A DNA stretch of 64,000 bases from Terramyces sp. JEL0728. Lineage: Eukaryota; Chytridiomycota; Chytridiomycetes; Rhizophydiales; Terramycetaceae. A program made the translations under genes and the position numbers. Shown in pieces: positions 974-63,861 of this stretch (the first letter of the stretch is position 1; every line of letters begins with the position of its first letter). Below the pieces are notes generated by a model. The model did not search any database. It worked only from the letters and a program-made list of their open reading frames with translations, and was not told the DNA's origin. The stretch is from positions 124,001-188,000 of the forward strand of contig JADIIU010000004.1 of assembly GCA_027603945.1 (NCBI GenBank), given 5' to 3'.

Positions 974-2621
974 CTAGTCGGTTCGTGTATATCCGCTTTG
1001 CTCTCGTATAAGATCTGCAATGACCTTATAACCATACTTTACGGCATCAGTGTAGGCTAATGTTACTGTCTATGTACCTGTTCCCTCCCACCGATCTTTG
1101 GCGTTCACATCCACCTCAGGATACTTTAACAGACACTTGACCATTTCTGTTTTCCCACTACATGCAGCCAGATGCAGCAAAGTTCTCCCGTCGTAATCAC
1201 TAGCGCCTGGCGAAACTCCACCTCGAATTAGCCGTAGCAGTTCCATCAAATCTCCTTCCGCTGCCGCATTAAATGCCGCCATCTTTCCTTCTCTCTCTGT
1301 AGCTATCTTGTTCAATCTTGGATTAACCCTAATTCTAGTTGCAGTGGGTTTTAGCGAATCGAAATTGTGGAAAATGAATTCATCCACCAGTCTAGTAAAG
1401 AATTCTACTCCCCGCACCGAATTTCCAATCGAATCTAGTGGTGGAGAGTATATACAGATGCAGCCAAAGTCGGGTATCACTGCATATATGCTGCCCGACA
1501 CGCCTGATTTTGCCGGTATCCCAACTCGAAATGCCCATTCACCACTATAATCATATAGACCGCAAGAATACATCAAGGAAAGACAATCCCTACAAGTTCT
1601 GGATTTAAGGACCTTTGTTCCCGTCGTAGGACATTCGCCCATATTTGCCAATGTAGCACCAGCAATTGCAAGCTTGTTACAATCCGTTTCTAACGAACAG
1701 CATTGAAAGTAAAAATCCAGAGTTTCATTCAAATCAGTGCCTTCTGGAAATGCTTTTTTCCCTTGCATCATGTATCCCAAACAAAAGTTACTATCCGCAT
1801 GCATCTTTTCCGATAGATATACTATATTAGAAAAGCCCCATTTCAATCCTCCACTCATTTTGCATAGCTGCTCATTGACATATTGGAATTTCTCGTATAT
1901 CGGCTCATTTGATTTGATTAGAGAGCATGCCATGATCGCGCCTAAGTTAATATCGAGTACCAGAGTTAATCATTGGATTGTGTGGTCTGTTTTTAGAATT
2001 CAAACATAGGGAGTTGAATGCAACCCCGCTTGGTTCCCTTCCGATGTGTTCATGAACTTTTTCTGTTCCGTGTTCTTCTAACGCAAGGCAATATGTTAAT
2101 GGTTTACAGCAGGATTGAACTGAGAATTCGACTTCAGAATCCCCCATTTGAAATCTCTGGCCATCGATTGTGCAAACAGACATTCCGAAATATTCTGGGT
2201 TGACCTGTGCTAATTTTGGGATATAATCTGCATTTTTACCAACAGTATGGCTGACAGATGCTTCAACTTGATTAAATAACTTGTTTAGTCTGTCGCAAAA
2301 GTCTTTAAAATCGGGAACTACCAGATTTCCTTTGAATGCACGCTCAATCAAAGTAGAGTTTTCCACTGTGGACAGCATTTCAGCAAACACTTCTGGAGTG
2401 ATGTCTTTCCGGTATTCGTGGTCAGCAGTCATAAGTTTTTGAAAGAAGGATTTCAAACGAGGATCATCTGGCAATAACCCACTGGATTTGAGGAAATTGG
2501 AAATTTCTGCTGCATTTACTGTTCCATTTTCTACTGCTGTTTTTTCTTCGATGAATCTACAAGATGCTGGGAATTTGGCCATTGGCGGATAGAGGTCTGT
2601 TGATGGTCTTCGTTTCCCCAT
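974..2621 (-). CDS. GLS: Kidney-type (animal-like) glutaminase with ankyrin repeats
   Basis: Hydrolyses glutamine to glutamate and ammonia. Three exons, introns at 1942-1960 (19 nt) and 1057-1077 (21 nt); spliced length 535 aa. Residues ~15-120 match the N-terminal helical (EF-hand-like) region of metazoan GLS. The serine-dependent glutaminase domain follows, with the catalytic Ser-x-x-Lys in QSCCKPL and conserved PHNPMINSG, FPEGTD and SCGLYDYSG. Two ankyrin-like repeats form the C-terminus (DYDGRTLLHLAA; VNAKDRW). The last exon, AYTDAVKYGY to the TAG at 974, is recovered only by splicing. No clear mitochondrial presequence is seen, unlike human GLS. The animal-like architecture is unusual for a fungus. 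Confidence 0.9.
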
Positions 2622-2960
2622 TGATTATTCTCCTTTCCGATAACAGTAAACAAACAAAATCCAATGCGCACAAAAGAAACTTTTCGCTGCTATTCACATG
2701 CTCATAACCTCTCATCTTCATCTCTAAGCTATCACGCTAACCAACACATGACGACTCGTATTAGATTAAAATAATACTGCAGGCATGCAATAGAGAGTGT
2801 GGATTGTTTACCCTGTGTTGCCATATTCAATTATAATTTAAGATCCATGCAACACCCATAAAAATGCATCTCAATGCCAGTTATCTGCGACACCATCTCT
2901 CATTCAAATAAAGTGATACAATTGAGCTCAAATGGCGCAACTAAAATTTTCCTCAAATTT
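2622..2960. other. Shared upstream region of divergent GLS and Maf genes
   Basis: AT-rich intergenic stretch between two divergent start codons (2621 minus, 2961 plus). No coding or RNA feature is supported. An in-frame ATG at 2874 would lengthen Maf by 29 residues but has no family support. Confidence 0.5.
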
Positions 2961-3585
2961 ATGCTTCCAATTGTACTGGGATCCTCCTCTTCATTCAGAG
3001 CTGGACTGTTGAAATCAAGAGGACTAGCATTTACTCAAAAGTCTCCGGATATTGACGAGAAAAGTATTGGCGTACATCACAGAAAGGCAAACAAAGCTGA
3101 TTTGCTGGTTCTCGAAGTAGCACGGGCTAAAGCTACTGCATTGTTAGAGACAGTAAAAGAACATAGTATCCTGATAACCTGCGATCAAGTGGTTGTCTGT
3201 AACGGGAAAATCAGGGAAAAGCCTGTTGATGAACTGGTAATTGGTTCTGATACTAGGAAGCAAGAAATTATCTGGAAAGTTATGCAGACTATCCAGCTGA
3301 AACCCATTCGGCAATTGTTGTCGTGAATACTGCATCTGGGAAAAGTGCTTCTGGTGTTGATGTCGCCAAGCAATATTTCCATCGCATACCGTCAGATGTA
3401 ATTGCCCAAGCAATTAAAGAAGGAAATGTGATGAAATCAGCCGGTGGGTTTCTTATTGATGATCGTACCCGTGATTAACTGTAGCGCTGTTTACTCCATA
3501 TTTGAAATCGAGAGAAGGCGAGGAAGATTCTATTATTGGATTGCCTCTAGATCTACTGGAGCGTCTGGTGCTCAAAGTTGCTTAA
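2961..3585 (+). CDS. Maf/ASMTL-type nucleotide pyrophosphatase
   Basis: Maf proteins hydrolyse non-canonical nucleoside triphosphates and m-/UTP-type substrates. Introns at 3237-3256 and 3465-3484 (20 nt each); spliced length 194 aa, normal for the family. The start MLPIVLGSSSSFR is the usual Maf N-terminus, so the upstream in-frame ATG at 2874 is not used here. Conserved elements are TCDQVV near residue 75, EKPVD, SGVDVAKQYF, SAGGFLIDD and the C-terminal EDSIIGLPLDLL. The last 36 residues appear only after removing the second intron. The next gene starts 11 nt after this stop on the same strand. Confidence 0.88.
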
Positions 3586-3596
3586 TAAAAAAACTA

Positions 3597-4910: not shown

Positions 4911-6501
4911 ATGTCTGAACAGTACTGTGTTTGCTAACAAAAGGGACAAATCGTTTAATAGAAATAAGTTATACATTGACACTTCAATCGGAGCATCAAC
5001 TAATCAACAGCCCTTAGCTTCCCCTCTACCACCGCCAGAATGGCCCCAAGAGACAACCCCGTTCTTCTTACCCACCTCAACGCTAGTAGTTTTATATGCA
5101 GCTGACAGTTCAATGCAGCTATTGCCTAAAATCAAACCTAAAATGGATAGAGGATTTTTTATCACCCCAAATGGAGCTGGAAGCGACTGGACATGTTACA
5201 GAAGAAACTATTTTCAAATTTCAAGTGCTTTCGCATTAGAGGATCAAGACGGGATGGAATGCAACGCTCCATGCTATTTGAAAGATCAAGGCACCTCTTA
5301 CGCAGTAGAGTCCTTTGCGATTGGTATTGATGCCAAAGTATGTCACGGGGATAGAAAAATAGGGATTGTGCAGCACACTCCAAAGAGAGACAAAGGTCCT
5401 CAAATCACTCCGACTCCAAAGGAAGTATTGGCTGGAGGGAATCCGTTCCAGTACAGCGGCTTAAGCGCAAGCAAGTTTGTAGCAACTTTTGAACGCCTGC
5501 AGTTTAAAAGCGCTACCGCAAATAATGGAAAGCGCCGTGCAGCTCAACAGTTTTTCACAATCATTTTAGATTTGTACGCTGTTGTCAACGGCAAGCATTT
5601 GAAGGTTGCCACTTGCGAGTCTTCACAGCTAGTCGTCAGAGGAAGATCCCCAGGGCACTACTCTGACAATGCTGTTGAACCATCAGTGCATTTCCATGAG
5701 ATGCAGCCTAAAAATGGCGAAAAATCTCCAACTGAAGAGCATTCTCCCTATCCTCCTAATTCCGCAAACTCTCTGGTATCTCCAGCGTATCCTTACTTGA
5801 CTCCTGAAAGTCGGTTCAATCCTTATCCCACTGCAACTTCGACTTCTTCAAGCTGGTTAAGATCCAGGGGGGATTCTGCTGAATCTCTCCAATCTTACAT
5901 CACAAACGATTCTTATGCCTCCTCCTTTGATGACGGCAAGCCGGATAGACAGCCAGCCTTAAACTTCAGCAACCCAGCTTTCCCAAGGTTGGCCCAATAC
6001 TCACCAATTACTGAAGATGCAAACAAGTTCCAGTCACCTTTCCCAAGAGCAGAAAATAGGTTCTATTCTGGGATCAAAAACAGTCAGATCGGACAAGTGT
6101 TATCTCCAGTAACTCCAATTGCAACAGACACTTTAATCCCGCCATCTGTAGAAGACAATCAAACCCCAGATTTTGACAATACTACACGATTTACTTATGA
6201 CAATACCGACAGATCCTACAATAATCGGCTCTTGCGTTTACCTAAAGGAGTGCCGTATGGCAACGAAGAGTTGTATACGAACAGACAAGACTCTTTCCAA
6301 TCTCAGGATTCATTCCAACGGCACGACACGTACACTTCACAAGAATCATTTCAACCTTCTTTTACAGAAAATCGAGACTCTTATACACCGTCGTTTACAG
6401 AACCTAATGGTGATACTTATAGCAACCATTTGTATTCTGTAGATAACTTTGGCAATAATGCTAAAATGGAATATACCCAATCCCAGACTGAAAGCCAATA
6501 G
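4911..6501 (+). CDS. NDT80/PhoG-domain transcription factor (first copy)
   Basis: NDT80-type factors bind DNA through an Ig-like PhoG domain and control meiosis, sporulation or nutrient responses in fungi. A 22-nt intron at 4922-4943 joins the first codons MSEQ to DKSFNRNKL; without it the frame has no ATG near its start. Spliced length 522 aa. The PhoG region runs about residues 55-240, with WTCYRRNYFQIS, IVQHTPKRDKG, LERLQFK-type and VRGRSPGHY motifs. The rest is low-complexity, rich in Ser, Gln, Asn, Pro and Tyr, with QDSFQ/HDTYTSQESFQ repeats near the end. A paralog lies at 8544-10192 in the opposite orientation. Confidence 0.85.
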
Positions 6502-6594
6502 ACTCACTGTTTTTACTATCAATAAAATTGTAATAATCTCAACAGTTGTTTTGTGGATGAGTAGTGGACTAATCAAGATTGGAAACATACATAT

Positions 6595-7160
6595 TTATTG
6601 TGCCATCTTTTGCAAATTCTTTTTCAATTCCTCATTCGCCTTCTGTGCAGCTTGTTTTTCTTGATCTTCCAACCCTTTCAAGGCACTTCTAATACCAGGA
6701 TCTTGGGGAGCCAATCGCGCTGCATCCTTCATAATCTTGATCGCCTTTGAAGTTTCCTTCATTGCAGCATAAGCTTGACCCTTTCTAAACATTGCCTACG
6801 TTACCAGCATTTACTTTTGCATTCTTGTCATCCAAAGCCAACGTTTTTTCACAACTTGTAATTGCCTTGTCGTTCTTTCCAAGTTTCAAGTAGCACGCTG
6901 CCATATTAGAGTGCGTTGCAATCAACAGCTACGTTAGCGAGGATTACTTTGCTGATTTCTTGTTTGGTCTCTTCAGGTAATGGATTAGCCTGTGGTACAC
7001 CCATGCTGATTTTAGAATTGTCCAACCCAGTTAGGTACAAGATTGCGTTGTAGTATTCGCCCAATGCTTTTTGGTGTTCGCTGTTCTTGAAATATTGGTT
7101 TCCCTTATCCTTGTGTTCTGCTCCTTTTTGGAGTTTACCATCCACTGAAAGTGTTGTCAT
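6595..7160 (-). CDS. TPR protein, TTC9-like
   Basis: Small cytosolic tetratricopeptide protein of 175 aa. Introns of 19 nt at 6929-6947 and 6796-6814. Three TPR units are visible: KDKGNQYFKNSEHQKALGEY, NMAACYLKLGKNDKAITSCE and AMFRKGQAYAAMKETSKAI. A longer first loop (LTGLD and a following ~25 residues) and overall size resemble vertebrate TTC9C and the TPR part of FKBP-type immunophilins. There is no isomerase domain. The C-terminus is a Lys/Glu/Gln-rich helix. It starts 31 nt after the LAS1 stop on the same strand. A chaperone-cofactor role is inferred only from the family. Confidence 0.8.
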
Positions 7161-7191: not shown

Positions 7192-8462
7192 TTACAGTAG
7201 AGTGAATTTTATTGGTTTTGCTTCTTCTGCCGACTCTGCCGCCATAGTGACTTGCTGTGGTGTATTATGCAAGACCGGGATAGACAACAAGCCCTGTTCG
7301 TTTAGCCAAACCATATCGTCAAATCTCACGTCCAATGTCAAGTCTGGGACTCCATTAGCATCTACTGCTCCAATAGGGCATGCATTCCAGTCAGCTGCTG
7401 ACCAATTCTCTTGCCCGACTTTCTCCTGATGTTCCGTTTTCTGGATTCTGCCTTCCAACTCTAAAATTTCATTTTGCATATCCTCATTGGACACCTCAAC
7501 ATCCATGCCATCATCTTTTATAGTTGGTTTAGACAGACTAGTCTTGCTAAACTCGCACATCTTGTTGTATACCTCTGGCAACTTTGAAATTCCTGCAATG
7601 TAGTCAAATATTTTTAAAGTTCTGGAATTAATCGACACATACTGAATAGTAGGAGATTCCAAGCAAGCCAGTGCAAACGTGGATCTATCTGAAGCGGCAA
7701 GGGAGAGCTCTTTGCAAAAAGTTACTAGGTTAATTCAATTGTACAAAGCCCTTTACGTTTAGAGGTCCGCAAAACTTGGACCAGCGAGTCAAATAAAGCT
7801 TTGCTGAATCCCTCCCACTGGGGTTCACAATAGTTTGCCAATTCCATAAATTTTGCTCTATTTTCGTCCTTAATTCTATCTGTAATGGTAGATATTAAAA
7901 TATGCACATGAGAATCTATAAATACCAAGTCGTTTAACCCGGCACCATCGGCCAAAAACTGCTCTACTATATCTGCTATCCTCTGTTTGGCAATTTCAGG
8001 AACGTAGAGCTCCTTTTCCCAATAATTTACACGGAGCCATTCCAGCGCTTGTTCCCTCCCCCTGCGCAAGTACTGAAGCGAAGGCAATTTATCATGCGTA
8101 GCTGAATGACGAAGTTCTACAAACCATAACGGCAATCCAATCTGTTCGGCAATGCTGGTTTGAGAATTTGCAAAATATCCTCTTTGAAGGGAGTCAATGA
8201 GTCCGTTAACGAATCTAATTATAGCAACTGAGAGTAGTAAGGATATTTCTCGGTTTGAGCAAGTTGAAAATCTGGTTGGTTGGTCCTGCATCCCAATTTC
8301 AACGAATATGGATGTTGATTCTATGGAATGTGGAAGTTTACCCCGACTAGACCAAGCCTTTACTCTATTAACACCAAGTTTCCGCCTTTCTGTATCCTGC
8401 GAATACAAATTTTCAAAAGTCTCTTTCCATTCTTGTGTGTCAATCCAAGGTGTGAACCGCAT
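7192..8462 (-). CDS. LAS1: LAS1 ribosome-biogenesis endoribonuclease
   Basis: Las1 is the HEPN nuclease that, with Grc3, cuts ITS2 of pre-rRNA in the nucleolus. One 20-nt intron at 7725-7744 joins KRKGL to LTFCKELS; spliced length 416 aa. The HEPN catalytic motif R-H-x-x-x-H is in ELRHSATHDKLPSL, near residue 127. The start MRFTPWID.QEW matches the family N-terminus. The C-terminal ~150 residues are less conserved, with an acidic stretch and a WNACPIG-type tail. Grc3 is not in this window. Confidence 0.9.
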
Positions 8463-8543: not shown

Positions 8544-10192
8544 TTATTGCGGATCGTCTAAATTGGGATAGTTGAATTTGATATCAACACTTAGCGCATC
8601 CACAACATCTTTTGAGAGTTGTTCAAATTGAACAGAGTCTTGGGAATAAGGGTCAAACGGAGTAGTACCTTGTGAATCCAGCATTTGAGGCGGGGTGTAT
8701 CCAAACCCATTGAAAGATTGGGATAGCCCACTCGGTTGTGCAGGGGTTGGAATAGGAGTGCCAGTTTGAAAATTATTCCCAGGCGAACTACTTCTTATTA
8801 ACGGTGTTCCGGTAAAGATTGGTGTATTACTTCTTGGGATTGCAGCCATATCGTTAGCATTGGCGTCCTGTCTTTGATATGGTTGGTTTGCACCAAAAAA
8901 TTCCACCTTTTTTATAGGAGCAGAGAGAGGCCCTCTTGCATTTGTAGGGTGGTATGGTATTTTACGGTTATATGAAAGTGGCAGCTCAGTGTACTGTTGA
9001 AAGTTTGCCCCTTGTGTGCTGAAAGAGTTCTTTGGTTCGGACCACAGACAGGAGCCACCATATGCAGTATCAAAATTACTATGAACGTTGGCGGAATTCG
9101 GCGTAGTAGGAGGCACCATTCGTTTAGGATTTACAAGATTAGGACCAGTAAAGCTTTCGCGAAGTAGCTCATTTGAGTCAGGAGGATATTCAGTAGAATC
9201 GAGATTTTCAGCGACAGACTCTTGGCAATCAGTATTGCTATCTGGAATTTCTTGAGTTTCTTCATAGTTTCCATCTTCCGCTTCAATGGACACGATTGTT
9301 TTGTATTCTTTGCCCTGAGCATCGTAGTGACCAGGTGACCTGCCTCTAACTATGAACGGAACACTTTCTTTTGTTGCTACTGCGACTGTCGATTCCATTT
9401 CAATGAATGCAGGCACTAGCGGCACACCGTTTCCATCCAAAACCAAATTTCCGTCAGAATCCCGTATTGGCCCATGTTTTGTTGGCTCGTATAGAACTTC
9501 TTCTCTGATTACACATTTTAGTATAACTACAAACCTAAAAAACTGCTGTGGTTTTTTAGAAGTCCTTGTGTTCTGAGTCGCGCATTTAAACTGCAACCGT
9601 TCCAGTTTAGGCGCTCCATTTTCCTCTGGTAACATTGTATTTGGCGATAAAACCATTGGTGCAGCTTTCTGTGCTTTATCCCTTTTTGGAGTGTGCTGCA
9701 AAATTTCAATCGTCTTATTCCCATCCAAAACTCTTGCTTCTGCCGTAACTTCAAACCGCAAAATTTCATGTGCTTGGTTTGTTTGTCTATCGTACAAAAA
9801 GTACGGCTTTGGTGTATAGATGTTTTTGTCGTCTTTAATGTAGAGCTTGCAAGACAAACTAAAGTAATTCCTTCGGTAGCAGTACCAGGTGTCGTTCAGC
9901 GTAAAGAACTTGTCTAGCAATGTTTGTAATTCGACTGTTAAACTACATTAGCACGGAATTTACTAATTTTTGTCTGCACACAAAATAGGTGCATGTTGAC
10001 ACGTTGGACCGAAATCCGGAGTTCCTTGGGAAGGGTCGATATGACTCTCTTTCACTCTTTTCTTTGGCGAAAGTTTTTCTTTCCGTTGAGCTCGATTCGC
10101 ATTATTGTCGATTGCGGTATTAATTTTCAGCCCTGCTGCTTTGCTAAATTAATTTCGAATTACGATTTCTTCTCTGTGGATTTCTTTGGCAT
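8544..10192 (-). CDS. NDT80/PhoG-domain transcription factor (second copy)
   Basis: Three exons with introns at 10144-10163 (20 nt) and 9943-9963 (21 nt); 535 aa. The first exon is only 29 nt (MPKKSTEKK). The second adds a basic segment PKKRVKE that could be a nuclear localization signal. The PhoG domain covers about residues 55-300: WYCYRRNYFSLS, ILQHTPKRDKA, LERLQFKC and VRGRSPGHYD. The C-terminal half is Pro/Asn/Ser/Gln-rich. Without the two short 5' exons the frame begins at a TTG, so the true start is recoverable only through splicing. It converges with its paralog at 4911-6501 across the TTC9-like and LAS1 genes. Confidence 0.85.
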
Positions 10193-11017: not shown

Positions 11018-11580
<563 letters not shown>

Positions 11581-11722: not shown

Positions 11723-14038
11723 ATGAAGGCGACGGCAGTGAAAGCACTAGACAATCTACACGGGTTCCTAACGACAGCGCTAGAAGTTGATACTAATTCT
11801 CAATTAGAATGCTGGATTGGTACTCCTGGCGTAACATTAGCTCAAGCTTGCGATCCACAAATGAATGCTACACCAAATTTGGGTTTGAATATGGAAATTT
11901 GCGATCTAATCAACAAGAATTTAAAGACATAGTATAGATCTCATTAAAATAGTTCTCGTGATGCAGCTTTTTGCATTGTAAAGTATATCAACCACTCCCG
12001 CGAGACGGCAAGTTTGGCTTTGGTGGTACACGATTCAATAATGTTAGTTGCTCGACAACTGCGCAAAGAACTGCGGGTATCCATTCCATATTGTAATGAG
12101 GTGCTTTTGCCATTGATTATAGTTCCAAAGAATTCCTGAATCTACTAGTCAGACGATTTCCAGAAACTGCAAAAGTATTAATATTCTAAATTAGCATGTT
12201 TCACATACCCAAGGAAAGATTCTGGAATTGATCGGGGAATGGAACTATATTTATGCTCAAAAGTCCAGATATAAGGAAGATTTTAAGCATATCAATGACA
12301 TGTACCGATTATTGGAATACAAAGGCTACAGATTCCCTAGGCTCAATGAAGCTGCGCTTGGATTCGAACCGGACGTTGTACTATTTTGCTTATTTAGAAT
12401 TTAAAAACCGAAGAGCAATTGGAAGAAGAAGATAAAAAGAACCAAGGCACCAAGCTGGAAGCGTTGATTAGAAAGGGCACCCCTGCAGCCCTTGCAGAAG
12501 CAAATGAAATGATGAAATTCATGTCTGGATATGTAAATATTGGCTGATAGCAGGACACATCCAAGAAACCGGATTACAAGCAGGAAGTAGCTTCAGAATT
12601 AGATAGAATCGAATCAAAAGTCATTTTACTGAATGATATGCTCAATCAAAGGACTCCAGAAGATTTCAAATCCAAATCTGATTCTACAATCGAGGTACCA
12701 AGTTGTTGATATCAGGAATTATACACATCTGCAAAAACTGCTCAAACCAAACTGCAAAAGTTTATTGAAGAAAACGACGATGAAGATCGTTTGGGCCGAC
12801 TGTTGGAAATGAATGGTATTTTCCATTTTATGTAGATTTGATAAATATTGTTGTCCAAAAGTACAGCGATTTGAAGAAAGGAAAAGCCGTCCAAAAGAAC
12901 GACTTTGACAGAAAGGAGCCAAGTCAAGCTAGCAAAGCTGCAGAAAAAGGAGCAATCAACCTCATTGACTTTGATGATTTCGGGTCCTTACCACCAGCCA
13001 ACAACAACACTAATGATGTACTTGGAGGGATTGCATCGCTTAACTTTGGCGCTCCAGTCCAAAATCAATACGCACAGCCAACTCAATTTGCTCAGACAAA
13101 CCAATTTGCTCAACCACAGTTAACTCAGTATAGCCAACCACAGTTAAATCAGTATAGCCAACCACAAATAAGCCCACAAAGCAACCAGTTTGCTCAGCAA
13201 GCACCGCCAAGTAATCAAATGTCTGGTGGATTTGATGCATTCAGTGGATTTGGGTCTCAAAAGCCAGTTACCCAAGCTCAACAGCAAAAAGCAGCTTCTC
13301 CATTTGATGATTTGTTGTCAATGAATGATTTAAAGCCAGTTCAAAACAATGCGCCAAAGAATGATCTGCTCGGGCTATTTGATGGTAAATCAGTATTAAT
13401 GTTAGCTTCACCAGCTCAAAACAAAGCTGGAACACCGCAACAATCTTTTGGTACACCAAAACAATCCACACCGCTTAATCAAATGGGCGGTATGCAACAA
13501 TTTGGAACTCCACAGCCAGTTGGACTTGGTCTCCAACAACAGCAATTTGGGCTGCAACAATTTGGAATGCAACAGCCATTTGGCACGGCACAGCCAATCG
13601 GATTGCAAAATTCTGGATCTAATTTTGCAAATTTACCAGGGCTTAATAAAGAATGTAAGAGTGAATGTAGAATGGGTCTAACCATAGATGTTATATTTGA
13701 CAAGAACGGGATGCAAATCAAACTGCAATTGCCAACGCCAACCGCAGTGCCAACACTAAAGGCAAAAGCAATCTTTGTAAACGTTACGCCAGTGCAGTTC
13801 ACTGGATTAAACTTTCAGATAGCATTACCAAAGGTAATTCTTATTAAAATAGACAATGACTGTTGAAATGGAACCAATTTCTAGCGCTGTTCTTGCACCA
13901 CTAAACCAATCTCCAACCACTCAAGTGTTTAACGTGGCCAACCCTGCAAAGGAACCATTACGAATGCGATTTAAAATCCAATACGGCGTTAACGGGGCTG
14001 TAGTTAATGAGAATGGAGAATATGCTCTAACAGTTTAG
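11723..14038 (+). CDS. GGA: GGA-type clathrin adaptor (VHS-GAT-GAE)
   Basis: Arf-dependent adaptor for trans-Golgi to endosome sorting. Eleven introns at 11820-11840, 11932-11952, 12026-12047, 12101-12122, 12175-12194, 12378-12397, 12533-12553, 12695-12715, 12816-12835, 13385-13405 and 13834-13852; 695 aa. The VHS domain (residues ~20-160) has ALVLLDNCAKNCG and SKEFLNLLVRRF. The GAT domain (~180-320) has LIRKGTPAALAEANEMMK. A Gln/Pro/Asn-rich hinge follows, then the gamma-adaptin ear ending QYGVNGAVVNENGEY. The introns at 11820 and 13385 are 21 nt and in frame with no stop; they are called from consensus and VHS alignment. An alternative in-frame start is at 11645. The 12533 intron could end at 12550 instead. 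Confidence 0.87.
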
Positions 14039-19369: not shown

Positions 19370-19845
19370 TTATTCTTGATCAAAAGTTTCAGTTTCGACA
19401 AGATCTGGAATTTCATCGTCGTCTTCAGCCTTCTTTTCTCCTTGAGCTGCTGCTTGTTGAGCTTGGAATTGTTCAGCCATTCTGCGTAATTCGCCAAGGG
19501 CTTCAGGTCCAAGTTGAGTCAAAATTCCAGGTAATAATTGTGTTAGATCCTTGGTTACTCCGTATCCGTTAATTACAAAGGTATTTGAGGCAACGGATGC
19601 TTGAACTGATATTAGCTACATGTACCTGATGGCTTCTTGAAGTGATAGATCTTTCCGTCGTTTCTAAACATGTTGACTTCTTCAACTCCAGTCATTGGTT
19701 GCACATTCAATTTGGTGAGAGTGGTTTGAAGTTTCTTTTCTTCATTTTCAGGTGCTTTGTGAACCTTCTTGACCTTTCTTCTTGGGGTTCCTTTGCCTCC
19801 GATGCGCACTTGGGATTGGAGTTTAGCGAGCTTCTCTGGATTCAT
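19370..19845 (-). CDS. EGD1: Nascent polypeptide-associated complex subunit beta
   Basis: Ribosome-bound chaperone subunit that pairs with NAC alpha. One 20-nt intron at 19606-19625; 151 aa. The N-terminal ribosome-binding motif is in [15 protein letters not shown]. The NAC domain spans residues ~35-100 ([32 protein letters not shown]). The C-terminal tail is acidic ([11 protein letters not shown]). Length is typical. It converges with the GDP-mannose pyrophosphorylase gene (72 nt between stops). Confidence 0.93.
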
Positions 19846-50856: not shown

Positions 50857-50975
50857 GTAAATAAATAGCAAACTAAACTTGAGGGTTAGGGCTAGATTAG
50901 CGTTGTTTACATGACGTATGCCCTTGAAAGGAAATCTCATCAATACAATTATACCCGTATCTTTAAACAATTTAT

Positions 50976-52624: not shown

Positions 52625-55600
52625 ATGGTGCAGTTCCATACAACAAATAGCGGTTCTTCAGTTGAAATCGATGTGAAGTCATACACTGATTTCCAAAGCT
52701 TGAAGAAGGATGTTTTCAAAGCTCTCGACCTTTCAGATGGACACTACTTCAAGTACGGAAACTCTATTTGCCAAGATTTAACCGCAATACAAGTTGCCGC
52801 TGATGTTATTCAAGTTTTACCAGTCAAACACGCTCAAGGCCCTCCCACCACTCCTATCCTAGGAAATATTCCAGATGTGATTTTCGGTCCTGGTCCCGAA
52901 GTAAATCTAAAGAGAAGTACCATGTATCTAACATAGTCTTCCAAGAATATGGCCCGGTTATCAAACTCTATACTTTCTCTACCGAGCAACGAAATGTAAG
53001 TGATCCAGCCGATGCCGAGGTTGTCGCCAGAGAAAGCGAGTACTTTACAAAAGAAATCAGATTTCCATTCAATGTCGCCAAATCGCTTGGAGGAGATGGT
53101 CTATTCACAAGCTCTACCAGTGATCCTCACTGGGAATTGGCACATAAGCTGCTTATGCCTACCTTTTCTCCAAAAGCAATCAAGAATTACACAGCAGAAA
53201 TATTCAACATTGCTAAAGCCCTCAAGAAGATTTTCGACACCTTTGCTAAAGATGGCACCCAAGTTTCTTTAAATCATCACATGACAAATGTTACATTTGA
53301 AAGTATTGGTCGCGTTGGTTTCGGGTAATCAGTCGTTAATTCCAAGATATTCATTCCATGTACTGGATTCTCCAGATGCAAAGTCGCACCCATTCCTCGA
53401 TGCCATGGGCTACTGTCTCGGAGAGTTGATCAACCGCATGCTTACTCCTGATTTTGTAAAAGCAATGCCATTACCGTCCAACAGGAAATTTGAAAACTGC
53501 ATTGCGCTGATGCGAAAAACTGTCGAAGATGTGATTGCAGCAAGAAAATCCAACCCAAAAGGCGAAAAGGACACAAAGGATTTGTTGGATTTCATGTTGA
53601 CTGCAGCTGATGAACACGGGACAAAGATGCCGGACGGTTTGATTCGTGATCAAGTCATTACATTTTTAATTGCTGGCCATGACACTACTTCCAACACGTA
53701 AATCAATTTAATTATAGATTGACATGGGCACTGTTGTTGCTTCACGAAAACCCAACTTGGTTAAAAAAAGTCCAAGATGAAGTGGATGCGCTAAATTGGT
53801 CATTAGATAGCGTTGAATCGATGGATATATCAAAACTAAATTTGATAGAGCGTGTCATTAAAGAAACGTTACGTATCCATCCACCTGTTCAAAGGTAGCT
53901 GTTCCTAACGAGAGACTTACTAGAGTTTGCAAAAAGGACACCGTATTGCCTTCAGGATACTTTGTTCCTGCGGACACCAATTGTACAATTTCCGTATGTG
54001 CTTTGCACAACAATGCAACTCTGTATCCTGAACCACAAACATTCAATCCCGATCGCTGGCTTCCTGAAGAAGAAAGTAAGAGAAGTCCATTCTCATGGCT
54101 ACCCTTCTCTATTGGATCAAGGGGATGCATCGGTAGGCAATTTGCAATGCTGGAAGCCAAGATTGTCTTGGCAACAATTGTGCGACACTACTTTTTCCTC
54201 ATTCCTGGTGCTGAAAATGTCAAGCCAATTTCTTCCTCGGCGATTCGAAAGCCAACACCATTCAATATCAAGCTGTTCCCTAGAGAAGTTGGCATTGCTC
54301 CTCCAAAACCAGAAGAGCTGAAAGAAGCCATTTCAACACCAGCACTTTCGCCTACAAAGATTGGCGCCGTTTCAAGGTCTATAGGAAAGCGAGTACCAGT
54401 CACTGTTCTATTTGGGTCCAATACTGGAACAGCAATGGACTATGCCGATCAAGTTGCAAACATTTACAAGGTACACTGCAAGTAACGTCTAGGATATGGG
54501 ATTTACAGTTCTTACAAAGTCATTAAACGATTGGGCTCCAGTCAAAGCTGGTGCTTATGAACCACTACCAGGAAACGATCTAATCAGAGAATTGGTTATC
54601 ATTGTCTCTGCAACCTACAATGGAAACCCACCTGAAAATGCAGAAATATTTGACAAATTCCTAAACAAAATGGTCCTAGCAAAGAGCTCTTTGGCAGGTA
54701 TCGGCTATTCGGTATTTGGATGTGGAAATTCTGAATGGCGGACTTACCAGGTTTTCCCAGTCAAGCTCAACAATGTATTTGAAGAACTTGGCGCGTACAA
54801 ATTTAATCCAAGAGGTGAAGCAAATGCCAAAAATGGTGATATGGATACTTCATTTGAATATTGGTCAGCAGCGCTTTGGACAATGACGGTCACTAAATTT
54901 GGATTGCAAGTTGAACAAGTGCCTCGAACCACTGAAGATGTTACTTACGACGATGCAAAGGTTGAGTGTGTTGATGTTTCGGATGTCGCAAGAAACTATC
55001 TTATCAAGCCAAATAATGCCAAGATAATATCCACCGCAGAAGAACAAGATTGCAAAACTACCGGGAGAAGCACCAAAAATATACTTTTAACGCTACCAGA
55101 AGGGCAATCCTACTTGCCAGGGGATCATTTAGAAGTATATCCGCAACAGGACGAAAAAATGGTGAAAGAATTTGCTGCGATTGCCGGTGTTGATTTGGAT
55201 AAAGCTTTCGAAATCAAGGAAATCCCAAACAGAGTCTCCGCCAGATCATTACTGGCCTCTGTCAAAGGACCATTTACCTTTAGAGCTTTACTAAGTGCTG
55301 CTGCAGACCTTACTTCCCCTCCAACTAGAACAATTCTCAAAGTATTTGGCGATGCACTACAAAAGGACTCCTCAACTCTTGAACTTGGAAAAAAATTTGT
55401 AGAAATGTCTTCGCCAGATGGAAAGCAGCTGCTAAATGAATTCCTGAAAGAACACCGAACAATATTTGACTTTTTCAAGCATTATGGAGAGTACACAAAA
55501 AAGCTCAAGCTGCGTGATTGGCTAGCCTGCATTCAAATTGTGCAACCGCGACGATATTCAATTTCGACTTCTCCAAAACAAGGTAGCGTTGTTGGCGTGT

Positions 55601-56199
55601 TGATTGCTGAGCATGTCGATGAAATCAGCAACAAGAAATATTTTGGTTTGGCATCCCATTACATGTGCCAATTGAAAGCTGGTGATCAAGTCTCTGTTCA
55701 TGTAAAATCTTGCAAGGATACTTTCCGCCTTCCTGAAAACGACTCGATTCCTGTGATTATGATTGGTGCTGGTACAGGTTTAGCGCCGTTTTTGGGATTC
55801 ATGGAAGACAGAAAACTAAACAATTTAAAGTCCATTTCAAAGGGAGGAAAATCAACCACTCATCTAATCTTTGGCTGCAGAAACGAAGGTGATACTTTGC
55901 TCAGGCAACAAATGGAAAAGTATGTTTCAGATGGAACATTGGATGGATTCCATGTTGCACTTTCCAGATCTGCTTCTGGCGGCAAAAAGTATGTTCAAGA
56001 TATCATCTGGGATAAAAAAGATTTGTTCTTTGACTTGGTAAAGAACAAGAATGCCAAGATCTATGTCTGCGGGGCAGGTACAATGTCCAAAGGTGTAAAG
56101 GAATCGTTTGAAAATGTCTTTGAGCACTTCAAGATTGGAAAAGCCTACTTTGAAACGGTAGCCAAGGAATCTCGCTTCTCTGAAGACACCTGGGGCTAA
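52625..56199 (+). CDS. Self-sufficient cytochrome P450-reductase fusion (CYP505-like) with added N-terminal domain
   Basis: Fatty-acid-type hydroxylase with its own NADPH reductase. Introns at 52893-52912, 53325-53346, 53698-53717, 53895-53914 and 54471-54492 (20-22 nt); 1156 aa. Residues 1-~72 are not P450 and look ubiquitin-like (VEIDVKSYTDFQSLKKDVF ... DVIQVLPV). The proline hinge GPPTTPILGN starts the P450 part: AGHDTTSNT (I helix), KETLR (ExxR), and the haem loop FSIGSRGCIGR. The reductase follows: FGSNTGTA (FMN), RRYSIST (FAD), GAGTGLAPF and the C-terminal EDTWG. No membrane anchor is seen. The first splice pair could be shifted (17 nt at 52901-52917) without changing frame. Confidence 0.9.
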
Positions 56200-56237: not shown

Positions 56238-57744
56238 TTAAACATGGTCGAAAGCCAACCATACTCCTACAGAGCCTAACAACACATATTCAAAATGCCT
56301 ATTACATTTTCTGCCAACTCTAAAGTCCCACACAAGCAACCTTCTCCTACCTCCGCCATTGTCGTTTGGAGCACTATATGCAATAATCATACTATCGTCA
56401 AAATCCATTTTAGCAACTTGTATATCTCCAAGCTGCGGCACAGCAATGCTATATCTTTCCATTGACTTTAATTCTGAAATTGAATAATTTCTGGATATAT
56501 CTTTTACTAAGCAGGGTATTTCAAACTCTTTTGCCATTGTTAAACTCCCGCCGGTATATAGATTGCCACACTGTTTCACCGGTAGTGGTGGATTGATATT
56601 CCAAAATGTAATTTCATCTGGAAATGCACCATTTGTGAGCATGAAATTCGACTTTACTATCAGTGTGTACGGAGAATGGGTCTGTGCATGGTCTGATACT
56701 TCGCTGTCTTTGATTGTCCTGGTTAATATATAAGTGTGTTTAAGGGTGCTGGTTGAGACGCTTTTGTGTTTTTCAAACAACAAATTATCCCCATTATTCA
56801 GGCCAATAACAAGGTATTGCTCTCCTAAAACAATGCTGCTAGGAATCTTTAGCAACTCAACGTATGGTTGTATCAGCGAAAACATGGAAGTCATTGCCCC
56901 GCTGAACACGTCCCAGATAGCTATCGTTCCGTTATTAAACAAAACAGCAAAGGTGGTGTTTAAAATATCAAACGAAATTACTTTGCCGCTAAACCCCAGA
57001 GTACTTGTTAGTCGTGAAATACCTTGAACAAGTCGCAATTGGAAGACAGTCTCTCAATCCTGATATCTCCCAAATCAATAAATTATTAATATTATCAAGC
57101 GAAACCAACACCCCTCTCCCGTTATCCTTAATCTGCACTACATTTGCTGAATGTCCAGTAAGTGTAACCCTTCTATTTTCCACCAAGCTTTTTCCATAAA
57201 TTAGCGAATCGGAACAATAAAACAAGTAGTTGTTGTATAATAGAATCCTTGCTGACTGTTCTTTGATCACTGGCAATGCGCAAATGTACCTTCTTTCGTT
57301 TGGGAAATGATTGTCGACGGAATAGCCTTTGGTTTTAAAACTCACATGCTCCAAAGTTCTTGGCCGAATGTCACTCCAACCACCAGATTCCAGTGTTCCA
57401 TTTGTCTTTAAAGATATAAAATCATGAGTTCCATGTTTTAAATTTAGTCTGCATCCATACAAACTTTTCCATGTTGGAAACGATGCTGGCAAGCTATCAA
57501 TCTCCAATTTGAACTCTCTATATACAAGTGGTATCCACAAGTGCCTATCCAGCCTTTCCAGCATTGATTTCCATCTTTTGCATACCCGTTCACACAGCGT
57601 CAATTGAAAAGGAGATATCCAGGAAAAAACAAGTCTCCAGCACCGCTCCTACTATCAGGAATGATTTACATTGAATATAAAGGGCTTGGGAATAATTGGG
57701 ATCACCAGCGGTGCTTCCTCATACTTTCGTTTCTTCAAAACCAT
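56238..57744 (-). CDS. F-box protein with WD-like propeller
   Basis: Introns at 57649-57669 (21) and 57004-57022 (19); 488 aa. The first exon starts MVLKKRKYEEAPLVIP and joins FIFNERCWRLVF to SWISPFQLTLCERVCKRW, which completes an F-box (residues ~20-65). The remainder has propeller-like strands (VTLTGHSANVVQIKDNG, NNLLIWEISG, FNNGTIAIWDVFSG, RRLLVWDFRVG). It probably recruits substrates to an SCF ubiquitin ligase; the substrate is unknown. Without the first intron the frame begins at a TTG and the F-box is cut. Confidence 0.75.
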
Positions 57745-58845: not shown

Positions 58846-60089
58846 TTATTCGTTTTCAATACTGTTGTACCAGTTAGCATCTGGATCATCAATCAGCAAA
58901 TGCAAGTTGTTCAATCCGTACATAACAGCGTCTACATTAACCCGATTGTACCTTTAAATTGGATTTGACTCAAATCAATCTTTTTCTTCATTCTTTCCAC
59001 CAGTAACAACCACTTTGTTCGCATGTATTTTGCACTCCACAAATCATCAGTAGTAACCAAATTCTGCCAGTTTATTTCAGAATCGTCTTGAGCTGTTTCG
59101 CATTGGACCAATAATCTGGATAATAAATCAATGAAATCATTTGCATTCCATTTTCGTTTCTTTTTTTCTAATTGCGGACCAAGCACTTTCCACCTGTTTG
59201 AACAGTCTCGATAAGTTCTGGTTTTCATAATGGCAGCTAATTCAGTAAATGAATGGAACTTTGTCGGATCATTGATGCCGTCTCTATCCATAATTTTCTT
59301 TGCTTCGCTGATTAGCAGGTCTGTTTCTTCACTAGTCCATTTCCCACTTTTTTCATTGTTGATAATATCAAATCTCTCTTTACAGCCAACCCTGCACATA
59401 TCCTGCTCTATTTCAGTCCACTTTCTGCCGTGAATGGCAACCAATTCCTTTAGCCTTTCATCTTCCTCTGGCCCCCATTTTTGCTTTCCAGTGTTGTAAA
59501 TAGAATATGCCCTGGACATAAACCAATATACTTGACCTACTGTTCTGTTAACGCCAGAATCATCCTTGATTTGACTGATGAATCCTTGGTATTTCTTGTC
59601 GCTGTAAGGATTTCTGTCTTGGAACCCGCTGCCTACAATCTTTTTCGATACTTTGGTTCTTCGTTTTATTAGGAAGTGTAAATCAGACCGCGGGATTTCA
59701 TTTTCGGTCAAATATCGCTCTACTGCTTCGTCAATCAAGTTGCGCTCAGTTTTGGAAAACATCCCCTTGTTGAAACTCTGTTTTGCTTCAATTTCTGCTT
59801 CTTTTGGTCTCCAGACAGTCGAGAATTCTCTTGTATCGGAGTCTGATTTGATTTTCCCAGTTTTAACAACCTTATTATTGATTTCGTTGATCCTAATGGA
59901 CTGTTTTGGTTCTGTTTTGTAATCTGGTATTTTTGTGAATGGATTTACTTGCTGGCCTTCATTTGGAAGCTGTATTGACAAGGTTCTTACGGGTGACTCG
60001 GCATCCGAATCTTCAATTATTTCCTTTGACAATTCCCTTGTGATTTTCGTTTCCAATTTCTGTTCTTTTCGTTTGCTCCTGCTCTTCAT
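58846..60089 (-). CDS. REB1: Reb1/TTF-I-like Myb-domain protein
   Basis: Reb1/TTF-I factors stop RNA polymerase I and organise chromatin. One 20-nt intron at 58932-58951; 407 aa from MKSRSKRK (23 further in-frame codons lie upstream). The N-terminus is basic and Ser/Glu-rich. Myb/SANT repeats cover residues ~125-345: GVNRTVGQVYWFMSRA, KWGPEEDERLKELVAIHGRKW, KWTSEETDLLISEAKKI, and RTYRDCSNRWKVL, followed by NWQNLVTTDDLWSAKYMRTKW. The last exon adds the short tail DAVMYGLNNLHLL. Assignment rests on the repeat arrangement. Confidence 0.8.
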
Positions 60090-60237: not shown

Positions 60238-60636
60238 ATGGAAGACTTTCATGGAGTAGAAGAAAAAGCGTTCGTAGTAGATGAAGTCAACAACGTCATC
60301 AAAGAGGTATTTGATTTTAACCCAGTCTGTTGAATCAACAATACAAAATGCGCCGTACCATCACAACAAAGTAGGACAGTGGAACTCCAATATCGTCGAG
60401 CAAACGCTAAAGAAACTTACTGGATTGAACAAACCATTCAAATACATTGGTAGCTGGTGCTAATTTAGTTACTTGTACGATTATGCAAAAGAACGGCGCT
60501 GGACTTCACTCAGCTTCGTCTTGTTACTGGGACAATTCAAGTGATGGTAAATATTAGTAACGCAGGAAGCACCACTTATAAATATGATTCAAAAACCATG
60601 TATATCATTGTGAATGTTTTTGGATTGGCTATTTAA
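60238..60636 (+). CDS. DYNLT1: Dynein light chain Tctex-1 type (DYNLT1)
   Basis: Three 19-nt introns at 60307-60325, 60450-60468 and 60547-60565 give exactly 113 aa, the human length. Sequence is highly conserved: [48 protein letters not shown] and the C-terminal [11 protein letters not shown]. It binds the dynein intermediate chain in cytoplasmic and some axonemal dyneins. Because exons are short, no single long frame shows the gene. Confidence 0.95.
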
Positions 60637-60789: not shown

Positions 60790-61636
60790 TTAAATGACAG
60801 AGGCATCCTTCAATTTTTGAATCAACTAGAGTTAATAATACTTACTTCATCAACGCTGGCGACTTTCCCTCCGCCGACTCTGGCAGGCGGTTCAGCTACA
60901 GAAACAGTTTCCAAAGTAGGAGTGATATCAACACCCAAGTCCTTTGCAGTAATTTTTTCAATTGGCTTCTTTTTAGCTTTCATAATGTTGGGCAGGGTAG
61001 CGAATCGAGGAGTATTTAATCTAATTAGAAAGACGGCTACCTCAAATCAACGGTCATGACTGCAGGAATCTTGGCTTCAAGGGTTTCTAATCCACCGTCA
61101 ATTTCACGAGTAACTGTGATTTTCTCACCTCCAACTTCCAACTTGGATGCAAAAGTTGCCTGCATTAATAAATAGTACTTGAGGCCACTTTAGTAATCCA
61201 GCAAGCATTTGCCCGGTTTGGTTTGAATCATCATCAATCGCTTGTTTCCCCAAAAAGACCAAATCTGGCTTGGCTTTTTCAGTGTATGCTTTCAATAATT
61301 TGGCAATCTATGTTAGTTGCGGGTACTTGTAGTGGTTGGATTTCTTGGTTTTCAGGTACTTCAATGTGAACTGCCTTGTCTGCTCCTAATGCCAAAGCAG
61401 TGCGAAGAGTTTCTTGAGATTTCATAGGGCCGACTGTAATTGCAATGACTTCCTTTGCGACTTTCTTTTCCTTTAATCTAATTGCTTCTTCAACTGCAAT
61501 TTCATCGAATGGATTCATGGAATGCTTCATTAGTAGAATTTACCTTGACGTTTGCGGTTTCTACTTTTCCTCCTGCAACTCTGATTTTAACTGCATAATC
61601 GATGACTCTCTTTACTGGAACTAGAATTCTGACCAT
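60790..61636 (-). CDS. ETFB: Electron transfer flavoprotein subunit beta
   Basis: Mitochondrial carrier passing electrons from acyl-CoA dehydrogenases to ubiquinone. Introns at 61525-61543, 61308-61326, 61160-61178 (19 each), 61021-61040 and 60826-60845 (20 each); 249 aa from [18 protein letters not shown]. Sixteen more in-frame residues begin at 61684 and could be a presequence. Conserved parts are [25 protein letters not shown], the AMP/FAD-binding [20 protein letters not shown], and the recognition loop plus C-terminal [14 protein letters not shown]. Complete and normal length. Confidence 0.94.
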
Positions 61637-61796
61637 TTTTGATTGTTGATGAATTGGAATTTTTTCAAATGCTCTGCGTGACATTTATTGCGGAAGAGCA
61701 AGAATAACTAATGTGTTAAAAGATGAGATCTGGCTCAATTTCATTTGATGGGTGTCGTTTATCACTACCTGAGGTGCCATTTTCTTTTTCTATTTA

Positions 61797-62085
61797 ATGG
61801 GCAGCTGTTGCGGAAAAGAATCACAAGGAGTGCGATTAGGAGGGGATGAAGTAGTAACAGGACAGCCGCAACCAAGAAATCAAATGGCAGACAAGCAAGC
61901 TGCGTTGGCTGCGGCAGAAGCTAGACGACAGGTATTACTTTTCTCATCGTAGAAACAAGAAGGATCCGGATCGTTATCAAAGAAGCTCAAAGAGCAAAGC
62001 GGAATTGGTCCTGGCAGAAATGCTCCTCAAGCTGCCGCACCAGGCGTAGAAGTAACTATTGCTAACTTAGTGGGATCCAAACTAA
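61797..62085 (+). CDS. SVIP: SVIP-like small VCP/p97-interacting protein
   Basis: 82 aa; introns at 61932-61952 (21) and 62052-62070 (19). MGSCCGKE is a typical N-myristoylation plus palmitoylation start. A VCP-interacting motif follows (QAALAAAEARRQ, residues ~34-45), as in SVIP, an ERAD inhibitor at ER and lysosome membranes. The basic middle SLSKKLKEQ and short Trp-containing tail (EWDPN) match the SVIP plan. The call rests on the VIM, the lipidation signal and the size. Confidence 0.7.
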
Positions 62086-62192
62086 ACAATATAAATACAG
62101 TGTAACTAATAAAAATTTAAATATACTGAATCAGTCGGACTGGCTTGGAAAAGAATGAAAGTATTATTTACACGAGAAATTTCTTTGACGTC

Positions 62193-63861
62193 ATGAGTTT
62201 TGCAACGATAGAACCGACAGTGATAGATGAAGAGCTAATTCGAAAAGCAATAAACGAACAGCTGAATCTGGAAATAGCAGAAATTGCCAAGAAGGAAGGC
62301 GTGGATCCGGAAGAAGTACAATCCTTACGTCTCGATTACAAAAGTAGAAATCGCTAATCCAGATATCCTCAAAATTGATAATCTATGGATATATGAGAGT
62401 ATTACAAAATTGCAGCTGGATAATAATATCATTGAGAAAATTGAAAATGTGAATTTCCTAAAGAATCTAAAATGGCTGGGTATCTACTTTCTAACAAGAC
62501 CTCTCGTTTAATAACATCACTGAAATTGAAGGGCTGAATTCATTAACCAAACTCACGGATTTGACTTTATTCAACAATAGAATATCAAAAATTGGAAATA
62601 TGGATGATCTCGTAAATCTGCAGGTATTCTCGATCGGAAACAACAACATACAAACCATAGAATCAGTAATATCTACTAATTTAGCTGGCATACTTGATCA
62701 AATTCGAAAATCTACGTGTATTGAATTTGACTGGTAATCCAGTTCACAAAAACCCAAACTACAAAAACTACTGTCTGGCTCACTTTAAAAACCTCAAATA
62801 TTTGGATTACAGATTAATTGACCAGGAATCAGTAATTATTTTTAATGAGATTGCGGTTGCTAGAGAAAAACACATTGATTCAATTATATCACAAGACGAA
62901 GAAGAAAAGATTAATGCGAAGCGAAAGCAAGACCAGAAAGCAAAACAAGAATTAGATAAATTACACCAGAAAGCGCATATTCTTTATATTGACTCGCTGT
63001 TTGATAGAATGTTTGATGAAGACCAAGATTATAAGCGTTTATTGCCAATCGCTCCAGCTATTTTGTCTGATATGAAAGAGGAGTACAGGGCTAAATTTGA
63101 AATTGTAGTCAAGGAACTAAAACACTTTGTACTGAAAAAATCGCAAGAAAAGCAAGATGATACAAATGCTATTCAATCGTGCCTGGACTCTGTAAAATCA
63201 ACCAGTGACAAAGATTGCTTGAATAAGCTGGAATTATTCCATCATCAAAAGAAACAGGTAAATGAAACTAATGGAAGCTGATCAAAATAGTTCAAATCTC
63301 TCGTAATCCAAAAGAAATTGACGATACAATCAAGGAATTACGTGATACCACTGGAAACCTCTCAGACCATTTGATGAATGCTGAAATAATTATAGTCGAG
63401 CAATTTGAAGAAGTGCTCAAAGATTTTGAAAGAAGCTACACGGAAATTTGCAATTCAATAGGAGAATGTGGGCAGTCTTCGTTTGCAAGATTAAGAGACT
63501 TGGAGAATGAATATTTGGAAAAATTCACTGAAAATATCCAAGTTATGTATGAAAGATTCAACAAGGGTGACGCAGAAGACGTAGACGATGAGATAAGAGA
63601 TGTACGATCTGTCTAATCTAGATCATGAGCGACAAAGATGTGCTGATGAACGCAGTGAATTCTTCACACGATTTCAGAATGCTGAAATTGGATCAACAGG
63701 AAGATGGGCTAGTCACTGGATTGGCAAAAGATTTAGAATCTATCGTTAAAGACATGTATCAGAACGAAATCAAGAGAAATAGGGATAGAGTCGGTGAAAT
63801 ACTTGCCCTGCTCGGTAAGACCAATTCCGAAATTGATTTTGCAGAAGAAAACTCTTATTAA
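62193..63861 (+). CDS. DRC3: Dynein regulatory complex subunit 3 (DRC3/LRRC48)
   Basis: Nexin-DRC subunit that regulates flagellar beating. Introns at 62344-62362, 62480-62498, 62666-62684 (19), 63258-63277 and 63602-63621 (20); 523 aa, equal to human DRC3. The start [16 protein letters not shown] is preferred over an upstream in-frame codon at 62145. Five SDS22-type LRRs follow ([61 protein letters not shown]). A long coiled coil fills residues ~190-420. The C-terminal [18 protein letters not shown] and [10 protein letters not shown] are conserved. Confidence 0.94.

Follow-up and report, generated by a model that had tools for sequence, protein, structure and literature searches.

The window analyzed here, a stretch of 64,000 nucleotides (nt) from the chytrid Terramyces sp. 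JEL0728, spans positions 124001 to 188000 of contig 4 in an assembly of 15.0 megabases (Mb) and 231 contigs. Its genes are interrupted by segments of about 20 nt, which are very probably spliceosomal introns of the U2 type, reduced to a functional floor of about 19 to 21 nt across the nuclear genome of this member of the Rhizophydiales. An earlier note, made from the letters of the window, had reconstructed about 120 such introns in 36 genes between positions 974 and 63861, all of 18 to 23 nt. We annotated the window with a gene finder whose tuned run combined a learned length distribution with site signals, including a branch-box score, and obtained 121 introns within the same outer limits, although in 33 of 40 predicted genes rather than 36. 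All but one were 18 to 23 nt long (18 nt, 1; 19 nt, 32; 20 nt, 43; 21 nt, 31; 22 nt, 11; 23 nt, 2), and the dominance of 19 to 21 nt claimed before was found again (106 introns). The lone exception, a 154-nt call at 26748, joins two adjacent gene models and was treated as an artefact. The further claim, an integer codon count for every spliced gene, carries no weight as evidence, since the method itself ensures it.

Genes of the window

The intron-bearing genes given by the tuned run are listed below with coordinates, strand, identity, and the start of each intron followed by its length in nt. "By eye" marks a name assigned by eye, and "outside the count" marks repeat proteins omitted from the junction count given further on.

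974..2621 (-): glutaminase with ankyrin; introns 1057 (21), 1942 (19); one junction inside Pfam Glutaminase, one in Ank_2
2961..3585 (+): Maf-like, by eye; introns 3237 (20), 3465 (20)
4911..6501 (+): gene; intron 4922 (22)
6595..7160 (-): TPR-like, by eye; introns 6796 (19), 6929 (19)
7192..8462 (-): gene; introns 7622 (21), 7725 (20)
8544..10192 (-): gene; introns 9943 (21), 10144 (20)
11018..11559 (-): deaminase; introns 11080 (20), 11198 (20), 11415 (19); one of three junctions inside Pfam MafB19-deam
11723..14038 (+): adaptor/clathrin-type, by eye; introns 11932 (21), 12026 (22), 12101 (22), 12175 (20), 12378 (20), 12533 (21), 12695 (21), 12816 (20), 13385 (21), 13667 (21), 13834 (19)
14073..15550 (-): leucine-rich-repeat protein, Pfam LRR_6; introns 14154 (19), 14280 (20), 14472 (19), 14640 (19), 14797 (20), 14944 (20), 15131 (19), 15516 (22); outside the count
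16270..17740 (+): flagellar-type, by eye; introns 16574 (22), 16776 (20), 16956 (19), 17135 (21), 17424 (21)
18108..19298 (+): mannose-1-phosphate guanylyltransferase (GMPP); introns 18133 (21), 18258 (23), 18411 (20), 18736 (20), 19236 (21); five of five junctions inside Pfam matches
19370..19845 (-): BTF3/NAC-like, by eye; intron 19606 (20)
20068..21966 (-): EMP70/TM9SF; introns 20308 (20), 20538 (20), 21266 (21), 21396 (20); four of four junctions inside one EMP70 match
22232..24981 (+): MutS family; introns 22781 (20), 23780 (23), 23964 (18), 24072 (21), 24215 (20), 24371 (20), 24420 (20), 24573 (19); junctions inside MutS domains: seven of eight, of which MutS_III holds three (its match exceeds the profile by 105 residues)
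25305..26740 (-): 2-oxoacid dehydrogenase E2-like, by eye; introns 25705 (21), 26078 (21), 26527 (20)
26902..27677 (-): neighbour gene fused to the E2-like gene by the artefactual 154-nt call, 3' end not defined; introns 27040 (21), 27162 (19), 27409 (21), 27478 (19), 27587 (19)
27708..28637 (-): CLAMP (flagellar C1a-32); introns 28168 (20), 28330 (21), 28434 (19), 28614 (21); three of four junctions inside one match
29005..31245 (+): AFG3/FtsH-like, by eye; introns 30577 (21), 31134 (21)
31839..32517 (+): weakly scored gene; intron 32160 (22)
32933..35205 (-): gene; introns 33166 (19), 33561 (19), 33789 (20), 34568 (20), 34756 (20), 34867 (22), 35060 (20)
35675..37268 (+): gene; introns 35768 (20), 36373 (20)
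37283..40159 (-): eIF3a-like, by eye; introns 37699 (20), 38176 (22), 40093 (21)
40193..41593 (+): WD40 protein, Pfam WD40; introns 40544 (21), 40855 (21), 40953 (21), 41094 (19), 41236 (20), 41423 (21); outside the count
43702..44389 (-): gene; introns 43912 (20), 44339 (20)
45616..46854 (+): alpha/beta hydrolase; introns 46010 (22), 46058 (19), 46436 (19), 46521 (21); four of four junctions inside Abhydrolase_3
46885..47584 (+): gene; intron 47240 (19)
48547..50940 (-): gene; introns 49950 (21), 50451 (21)
52625..56199 (+): P450-reductase fusion, by eye; introns 52917 (20), 53325 (22), 53698 (20), 53895 (20), 54471 (22)
56238..57564 (-): gene; intron 57004 (19)
58846..60089 (-): gene; intron 58932 (20)
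60238..60636 (+): Tctex-1 (DYNLT); introns 60307 (19), 60450 (19), 60547 (19); three of three junctions inside one full-length match, Pfam 1-95 of 95
60790..61636 (-): electron transfer flavoprotein beta (ETF-beta); introns 60826 (20), 61021 (20), 61160 (19), 61308 (19), 61525 (19); four of five junctions inside ETF
61797..62085 (+): small gene; introns 61932 (21), 62052 (19)
62193..63861 (+): leucine-rich-repeat protein, DRC3-like by the earlier note's name; introns 62344 (19), 62480 (19), 62666 (19), 63258 (20), 63602 (20); two of five junctions inside LRR_9

The gene at 11723..14038, with 11 introns of 19 to 22 nt, holds the window maximum.

Length class and anatomy of the introns

Plain motif counts in the window alone were too weak for a decision. 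The gene finder read both strands with codon-pair statistics trained on 69 long open frames, and it was applied to the window together with 20 stretches of 10 kilobases (kb) from eight further contigs (200 kb; 264 kb in total). In its first runs, introns were permitted anywhere between a chosen dinucleotide pair and no length was preferred. Without any site model and with a flat length prior of 8 to 150 nt, the GT-AG pair yielded 90 introns, 43 of them at 18 to 23 nt with 20 nt the most frequent length, against 4 to 11 in that range among the 64 to 78 introns obtained with each of five control pairs. When site weights were learned from all of the finder's calls, whatever their length, GT-AG gave 168 introns, 125 of them at 18 to 23 nt with a sharp peak at 19 to 22 nt, while seven control pairs gave 86 to 118 introns each and 1 to 12 in that range. 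An initial training in which GT and AG themselves entered the weights was discarded for heavy over-splicing (1512 "introns", just 238 at 18 to 23 nt).

Could the genome instead carry ordinary fungal introns of 50 to 100 nt, the short ones being a by-product of forced gene models? Published short fungal introns are indeed longer, e.g. with a mean of 63 nt in Cryptococcus according to excerpts of a survey of 644 fungal genomes (PMC8476143). However, in both flat-prior searches the GT-AG counts at 24 to 200 nt were within or below the control range, so that no longer intron class is visible. A scan by motif alone, which used no coding model, had no second peak either. For its donor and branch weights it relied on 86 window introns chosen beforehand at 18 to 23 nt (the 2 of 88 outside this range were unused), and it was not wholly independent, since the gene finder behind these introns had also seen the 200 kb scanned. 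The scan found 4, 50, 62, 25, 9, and 3 pairs at 18, 19, 20, 21, 22, and 23 nt, respectively, over a baseline of 2.4 per length at 60 to 500 nt; no second length class was seen up to 500 nt, the top count above 26 nt being 8, at 492 nt. We therefore regard ordinary-sized introns as the least credible of the explanations considered.

The tuned annotation of the 264 kb comprised 419 introns in 137 predicted genes, 111 of which carry at least one intron, at a density of 2.1 per kb of coding sequence. With the learned length distribution, 405 of the 419 introns were of 18 to 23 nt. Calls of this size occurred in all 20 stretches outside the window (1 to 32 each, where the stretch with one call could be a false positive). 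Given the same flanks and length prior, eight decoy pairs produced 31 to 56 calls at 18 to 23 nt (mean 45.5), against the 405 for GT-AG. AT-AC ends, examined as a feature of U12-type or AT-AC introns, gave 50 such calls, like the other decoys, and neither GC-AG nor AT-AC showed an excess above decoys that would make it a bulk intron class. Scaled to the assembly after decoy subtraction, the 405 introns would correspond to about 20,000 genome-wide. Phase 0 accounted for 174 of the 405, and an in-frame stop was present in 74 of the 97 introns whose length is a multiple of three, a bias that is not interpretable, as open introns of such length tend to escape the gene finder.

In these 405 introns, the donor profile was A at -2 (57%), G at -1 (51%), A at +3 (87%), A at +4 (51%), T (43%) or G (19%) at +5, and T at +6 (55%). 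The commonest branch boxes were TTAAT (91), CTAAT (60), TTAAC (44), CTAAC (35), and TTGAT (17). A strict YTRAY box was found in 83 of the 120 window introns and 276 of the 405 overall, compared with 54 of 840 random AGs, though the calls had used the branch-box score. With the branch A placed by motif, 5 to 6 nt separated it from the last intron base in 325 of the 405 and 13 to 14 nt from the first base in 330. Since the tuned finder scores these signals, the 43 introns of 18 to 23 nt called without a site model were examined separately. Strict YTRAY was present in 30 of them, as against 15 of 47 calls of other lengths; +3 was A in 36, +5 was T in 18 and G in 9, and the branch A lay 5 to 6 nt from the end in 31 and 13 to 14 nt from the first base in 33. 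The gap between branch box and AG was mostly 2 to 3 nt, as the earlier note had described, leaving no space for a polypyrimidine tract. In the main block of strict-box introns both spacings combine freely (68, 62, 35, and 36 introns), and the 13+4 combination that would make 18 nt is rare (2 introns), a pattern that suggests two short spacings, each close to its floor, and not a single measured length. A total-length ruler, suggested by the anticorrelation of the spacings (Spearman -0.20, n=276), was rejected, the correlation being partly due to 17 introns whose box lies 9 to 10 nt from the end.

Protein homology and gene models of relatives

A Pfam scan covered 12 of the 33 intron-bearing window proteins. 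The LRR and WD40 proteins (14 junctions) were left out of the junction count because their matches consist of many short repeats; in the remaining ten proteins, 35 of 43 junctions fell inside a single contiguous match. Most junction-spanning matches fit the profile length, e.g. EMP70 with 518 residues versus 515, while two were overlong (MutS_III, 298 residues versus 193; MutS_II, 132 versus 122). GMPP and ETF-beta compared with solved structures showed no intron-sized gap at the junctions (in the GMPP version that still lacked its last intron, added by the tuned model). GMPP was 92% identical to the protein of Boothiomyces sp. JEL0838 and 74 to 76% identical to those of Polyrhizophydium, Gorgonomyces, and Batrachochytrium dendrobatidis, whereas ETF-beta was 96% and 93% identical to its two Boothiomyces counterparts and 100% identical, over the aligned residues, to the public model of Terramyces sp. 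JEL0728. On these two genes, the genome falls in the Terramyces/Boothiomyces group of the Rhizophydiales.

The public models also differ from ours at the junctions themselves. Both Boothiomyces GMPP models hold the heptapeptide GDFILIV exactly at window intron 18411-18430, and its back-translation in phase 1 would fit a 21-nt intron with a GT start, CTAAT inside, and an AG end, so that the insert is apparently a retained intron. The window protein of 361 amino acids (aa) equals the Boothiomyces model of 368 aa minus this 7-aa insert, which agrees with the ortholog length claimed for it before. One of the two Boothiomyces models also differs at the N-terminus. In ETF-beta, the models of relatives depart at two places (window introns 61525-61543 and 60826-60845). 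That of Terramyces is without seven residues just before junction 1, apparently through a 19-nt intron extended to 40 nt, and that of B. macroporosus diverges at junction 5, as if an intron had been read through. Public models can also be right, since the ETF-beta model of Boothiomyces sp. JEL0838 is complete (249 residues). The relatives thus seem to share these introns, and a minimum-intron setting in the annotation pipeline would account for the errors.

These differences bear on a further possibility, namely that something other than splicing skips the segments, e.g. translational bypass or DNA elimination, or that they stem from errors of assembly. Their lengths are unusually uniform, and the segments are known from DNA alone, both of which would suit such a reading. 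It is nevertheless very improbable in view of the following observations: (i) the segments have GT-AG ends and a branch-like box that is enriched even in the model-free calls, (ii) genes for splicing factors are encoded in the genome, (iii) calls were made in all of the sampled stretches, and (iv) it is precisely here that the protein models of relatives depart from ours. The segments show what is expected of U2-type introns, i.e. GT-AG ends above chance, a branch box complementary to U2 near the 3' end, and restoration of a conserved reading frame, and they form one narrow length class spread genome-wide. We infer that they are removed by the spliceosome.

Splicing machinery and intron recognition

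The earlier note had proposed a spliceosome adapted to almost no branch-to-AG spacing and had hinted at loss or change of U2AF or SF1. Neither loss nor change of these two was seen. The U2 small nuclear RNA (snRNA) was found (140.2 bits), and its GUAGUA branch-pairing stretch is intact and canonical. U2AF65 is encoded, with a family match over positions 68-507 of 510; unspliced and read through stops, the U2AF_lg match fell into two pieces (251.7 and 27.9 bits), and splicing turned them into one of 334 bits (cut-off 310.3). By eye, we take the protein to have an RS-like N-terminus, a tryptophan motif, two RRMs, and a C-terminal UHM. SF1 is encoded with its helix-hairpin (1-114 of 114), KH domain, and zinc knuckles, the SF1-HH pieces of 66.2 and 42.9 bits becoming 113.5 bits over 1-114 after in silico splicing. 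The zinc finger of U1C is likewise complete (1-38 of 38), zf-U1 rising from 52.4 bits over 7-38 to 69.0 bits over 1-38 on splicing, and an RBM39-like protein is encoded (SF-CC1, 381.6 bits). The splicing-factor genes themselves carry introns of 19 to 22 nt. One 21-nt intron of the SF1 gene is best read as GC-AG with a GCAAGT donor (homology by eye); a 17-nt GT-AG reading at this site was dropped for its wrong frame, and a 168-nt intron called there by the tuned finder is spurious. The search covered a handful of factors, among them U1, U2, and U6 RNA, U2AF65, SF1, U1C, the U1-70K N-domain, and RED_N.

Several results weigh against U2-type introns of this kind throughout the genome. The decoy yield implies that false positives may make up roughly one in nine of the tuned calls, a strict YTRAY box is absent from 129 of the 405 introns, and the branch points were placed by motif. 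Furthermore, U1 snRNA was not found with the Rfam model at E 10, nor was U6 snRNA by Rfam above the 44-bit cut-off or by three patterns, in an assembly of 231 contigs that may lack small RNA genes. The U1-70K N-domain and RED_N were not found either, but domains split over exons can escape an exon-by-exon search, so absence is not shown; a scan of sampled loci for U1-70K-like motifs gave nothing convincing. Two weak matches to the U6 model (27.4 and 26.9 bits) are near-identical copies on different contigs, perhaps a repeat family; they have ACAGAGA, while the rest of the core is absent by eye, and they were taken as chance.

The same gaps would fit a spliceosome that has been rebuilt, in which +5 goes unread through an altered U1 and/or U6 and B-complex factors of the RED/SMU1 type are lost or changed. 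This proposal, which we consider possible but doubtful, overlaps with our reading as to the nature of the segments. Besides the four components missed in the searches (U1 RNA, U6 RNA, U1-70K N, and RED_N), it is favoured by the donor, where +5 G is at background level (76 of 405 donors in window and sampled stretches) beside the 87% of A at +3 and 55% of T at +6; the model-free introns are alike (9 of 43). Against it, U1C, U2AF65, and SF1 are encoded, and the limits of assembly and search just given apply to the missing components. In addition, the excerpts of PMC9505925 describe for Stentor coeruleus a commonest intron that also starts with GUAAUU and a U6 that retains the standard ACAGAGA box. 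With U2AF2 and SF1 kept there as well, the similar introns of Stentor argue that such splicing is within reach of a mostly standard spliceosome.

For the U2-type introns that we favour, the layout AAG/GTAATTnnnn-YTRAY-nn(n)-AG (slash, exon-intron border) would have consequences for assembly. The footprints of U1, SF1, and U2AF65 could not all fit side by side on 20 nt; since U2AF65 and SF1 are kept despite this overlap, the simplest reading would be a sequential hand-over, in which SF1 and U2AF65 mark the YTRAY-AG block, U2 displaces SF1, and U6 then displaces U1. The intron itself would be the unit recognised, and the lariat loop would measure about 14 nt. In the human B complex, the helix of U6 with the 5' splice site lies about 15 nm (21 nt) away from the U2-branch helix, and efficient assembly in vitro takes some 50 nt from 5' splice site to branch (excerpts of PMC6692369). 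With a distance of 13 to 14 nt, the human-type separation of about 21 nt could not exist here, and the B stage would have to be remodelled or entered differently, either with the two helices forming one after the other or in a differently shaped complex. Human short introns that need SMU1/RED present the same problem of a short distance from 5' splice site to branch (PMC6692369, excerpts), here reduced to just 13 to 14 nt. The geometry thus argues for an unusual assembly, and to this extent the adapted spliceosome of the earlier note stands. Geometry would set the lower bound of intron length, and its upper bound would come from deletion pressure or from selection for compactness.

Introns of this size have precedents, described here from excerpts of the cited papers. 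In chlorarachniophyte nucleomorphs (Bigelowiella, Lotharella) they are mostly 18 to 23 nt with 19 nt commonest, and B. natans has 852 to 951 of them (PMC4035089). As in the present case, they are GT-AG with few exceptions including GC-AG, show an excess of phase 0, and favour A at -2; unlike that relic endosymbiont nucleus, the 405 calls in 264 kb come from the main nucleus of a fungus. The introns of the heterotrich ciliate S. coeruleus are 15 to 16 nt long; in most, the branch A occupies position 10 of the 15, and the excerpts report no strong branch consensus (PMC9505925). They share with ours the GUAAUU start, a branch A 5 nt from the end (here 5 to 6), and the retention of U2AF2, SF1, and U1C, whereas here the first base lies 4 to 5 nt further from the branch A and the YTRAY box is clear. 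Mikrocytos mackini has introns of 16 to 17 nt (PMC10245619), and mikrocytid introns are likewise numerous, uniform, and near the known floor; that intracellular parasite has 17 to 19 identified spliceosomal proteins, whereas here a handful of factors was searched, some found and some not. Paramecium also has an ultra-short class only, but longer (mode 25 nt) and in a ciliate (PMC5014332). Among the matches listed from the openly licensed literature there was no report of uniform introns of about 20 nt in a fungus. At this length the introns come close to the shortest on record. A bolder reading, possible but doubtful, is that an intron-rich fungal nucleus runs wholly on introns of about 20 nt, with the B-complex geometry skipped or rebuilt and +5 unread, and has independently arrived at the design of Stentor and the nucleomorphs (GTAATT start as in Stentor, branch A 5 to 6 nt from the end). 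On that reading, the spacings of 13 to 14 nt and 5 to 6 nt would be close to what the active site of the spliceosome can physically accommodate.

Uniform ultra-short introns, known from ciliates, mikrocytids, and nucleomorphs in the papers cited, are encountered here in a chytrid, an opisthokont. Terramyces and Boothiomyces are free-living chytrids available in culture, and the group includes named strains (JEL0838, JEL0728). Since the models of the nearest relatives look damaged, the public proteomes of the clade may need re-annotation with a minimum intron length near 15. Because a chytrid stands near yeast and human, spliceosome structures and factor names transfer, and the question of the smallest spliceable intron becomes testable in a comparable machine.

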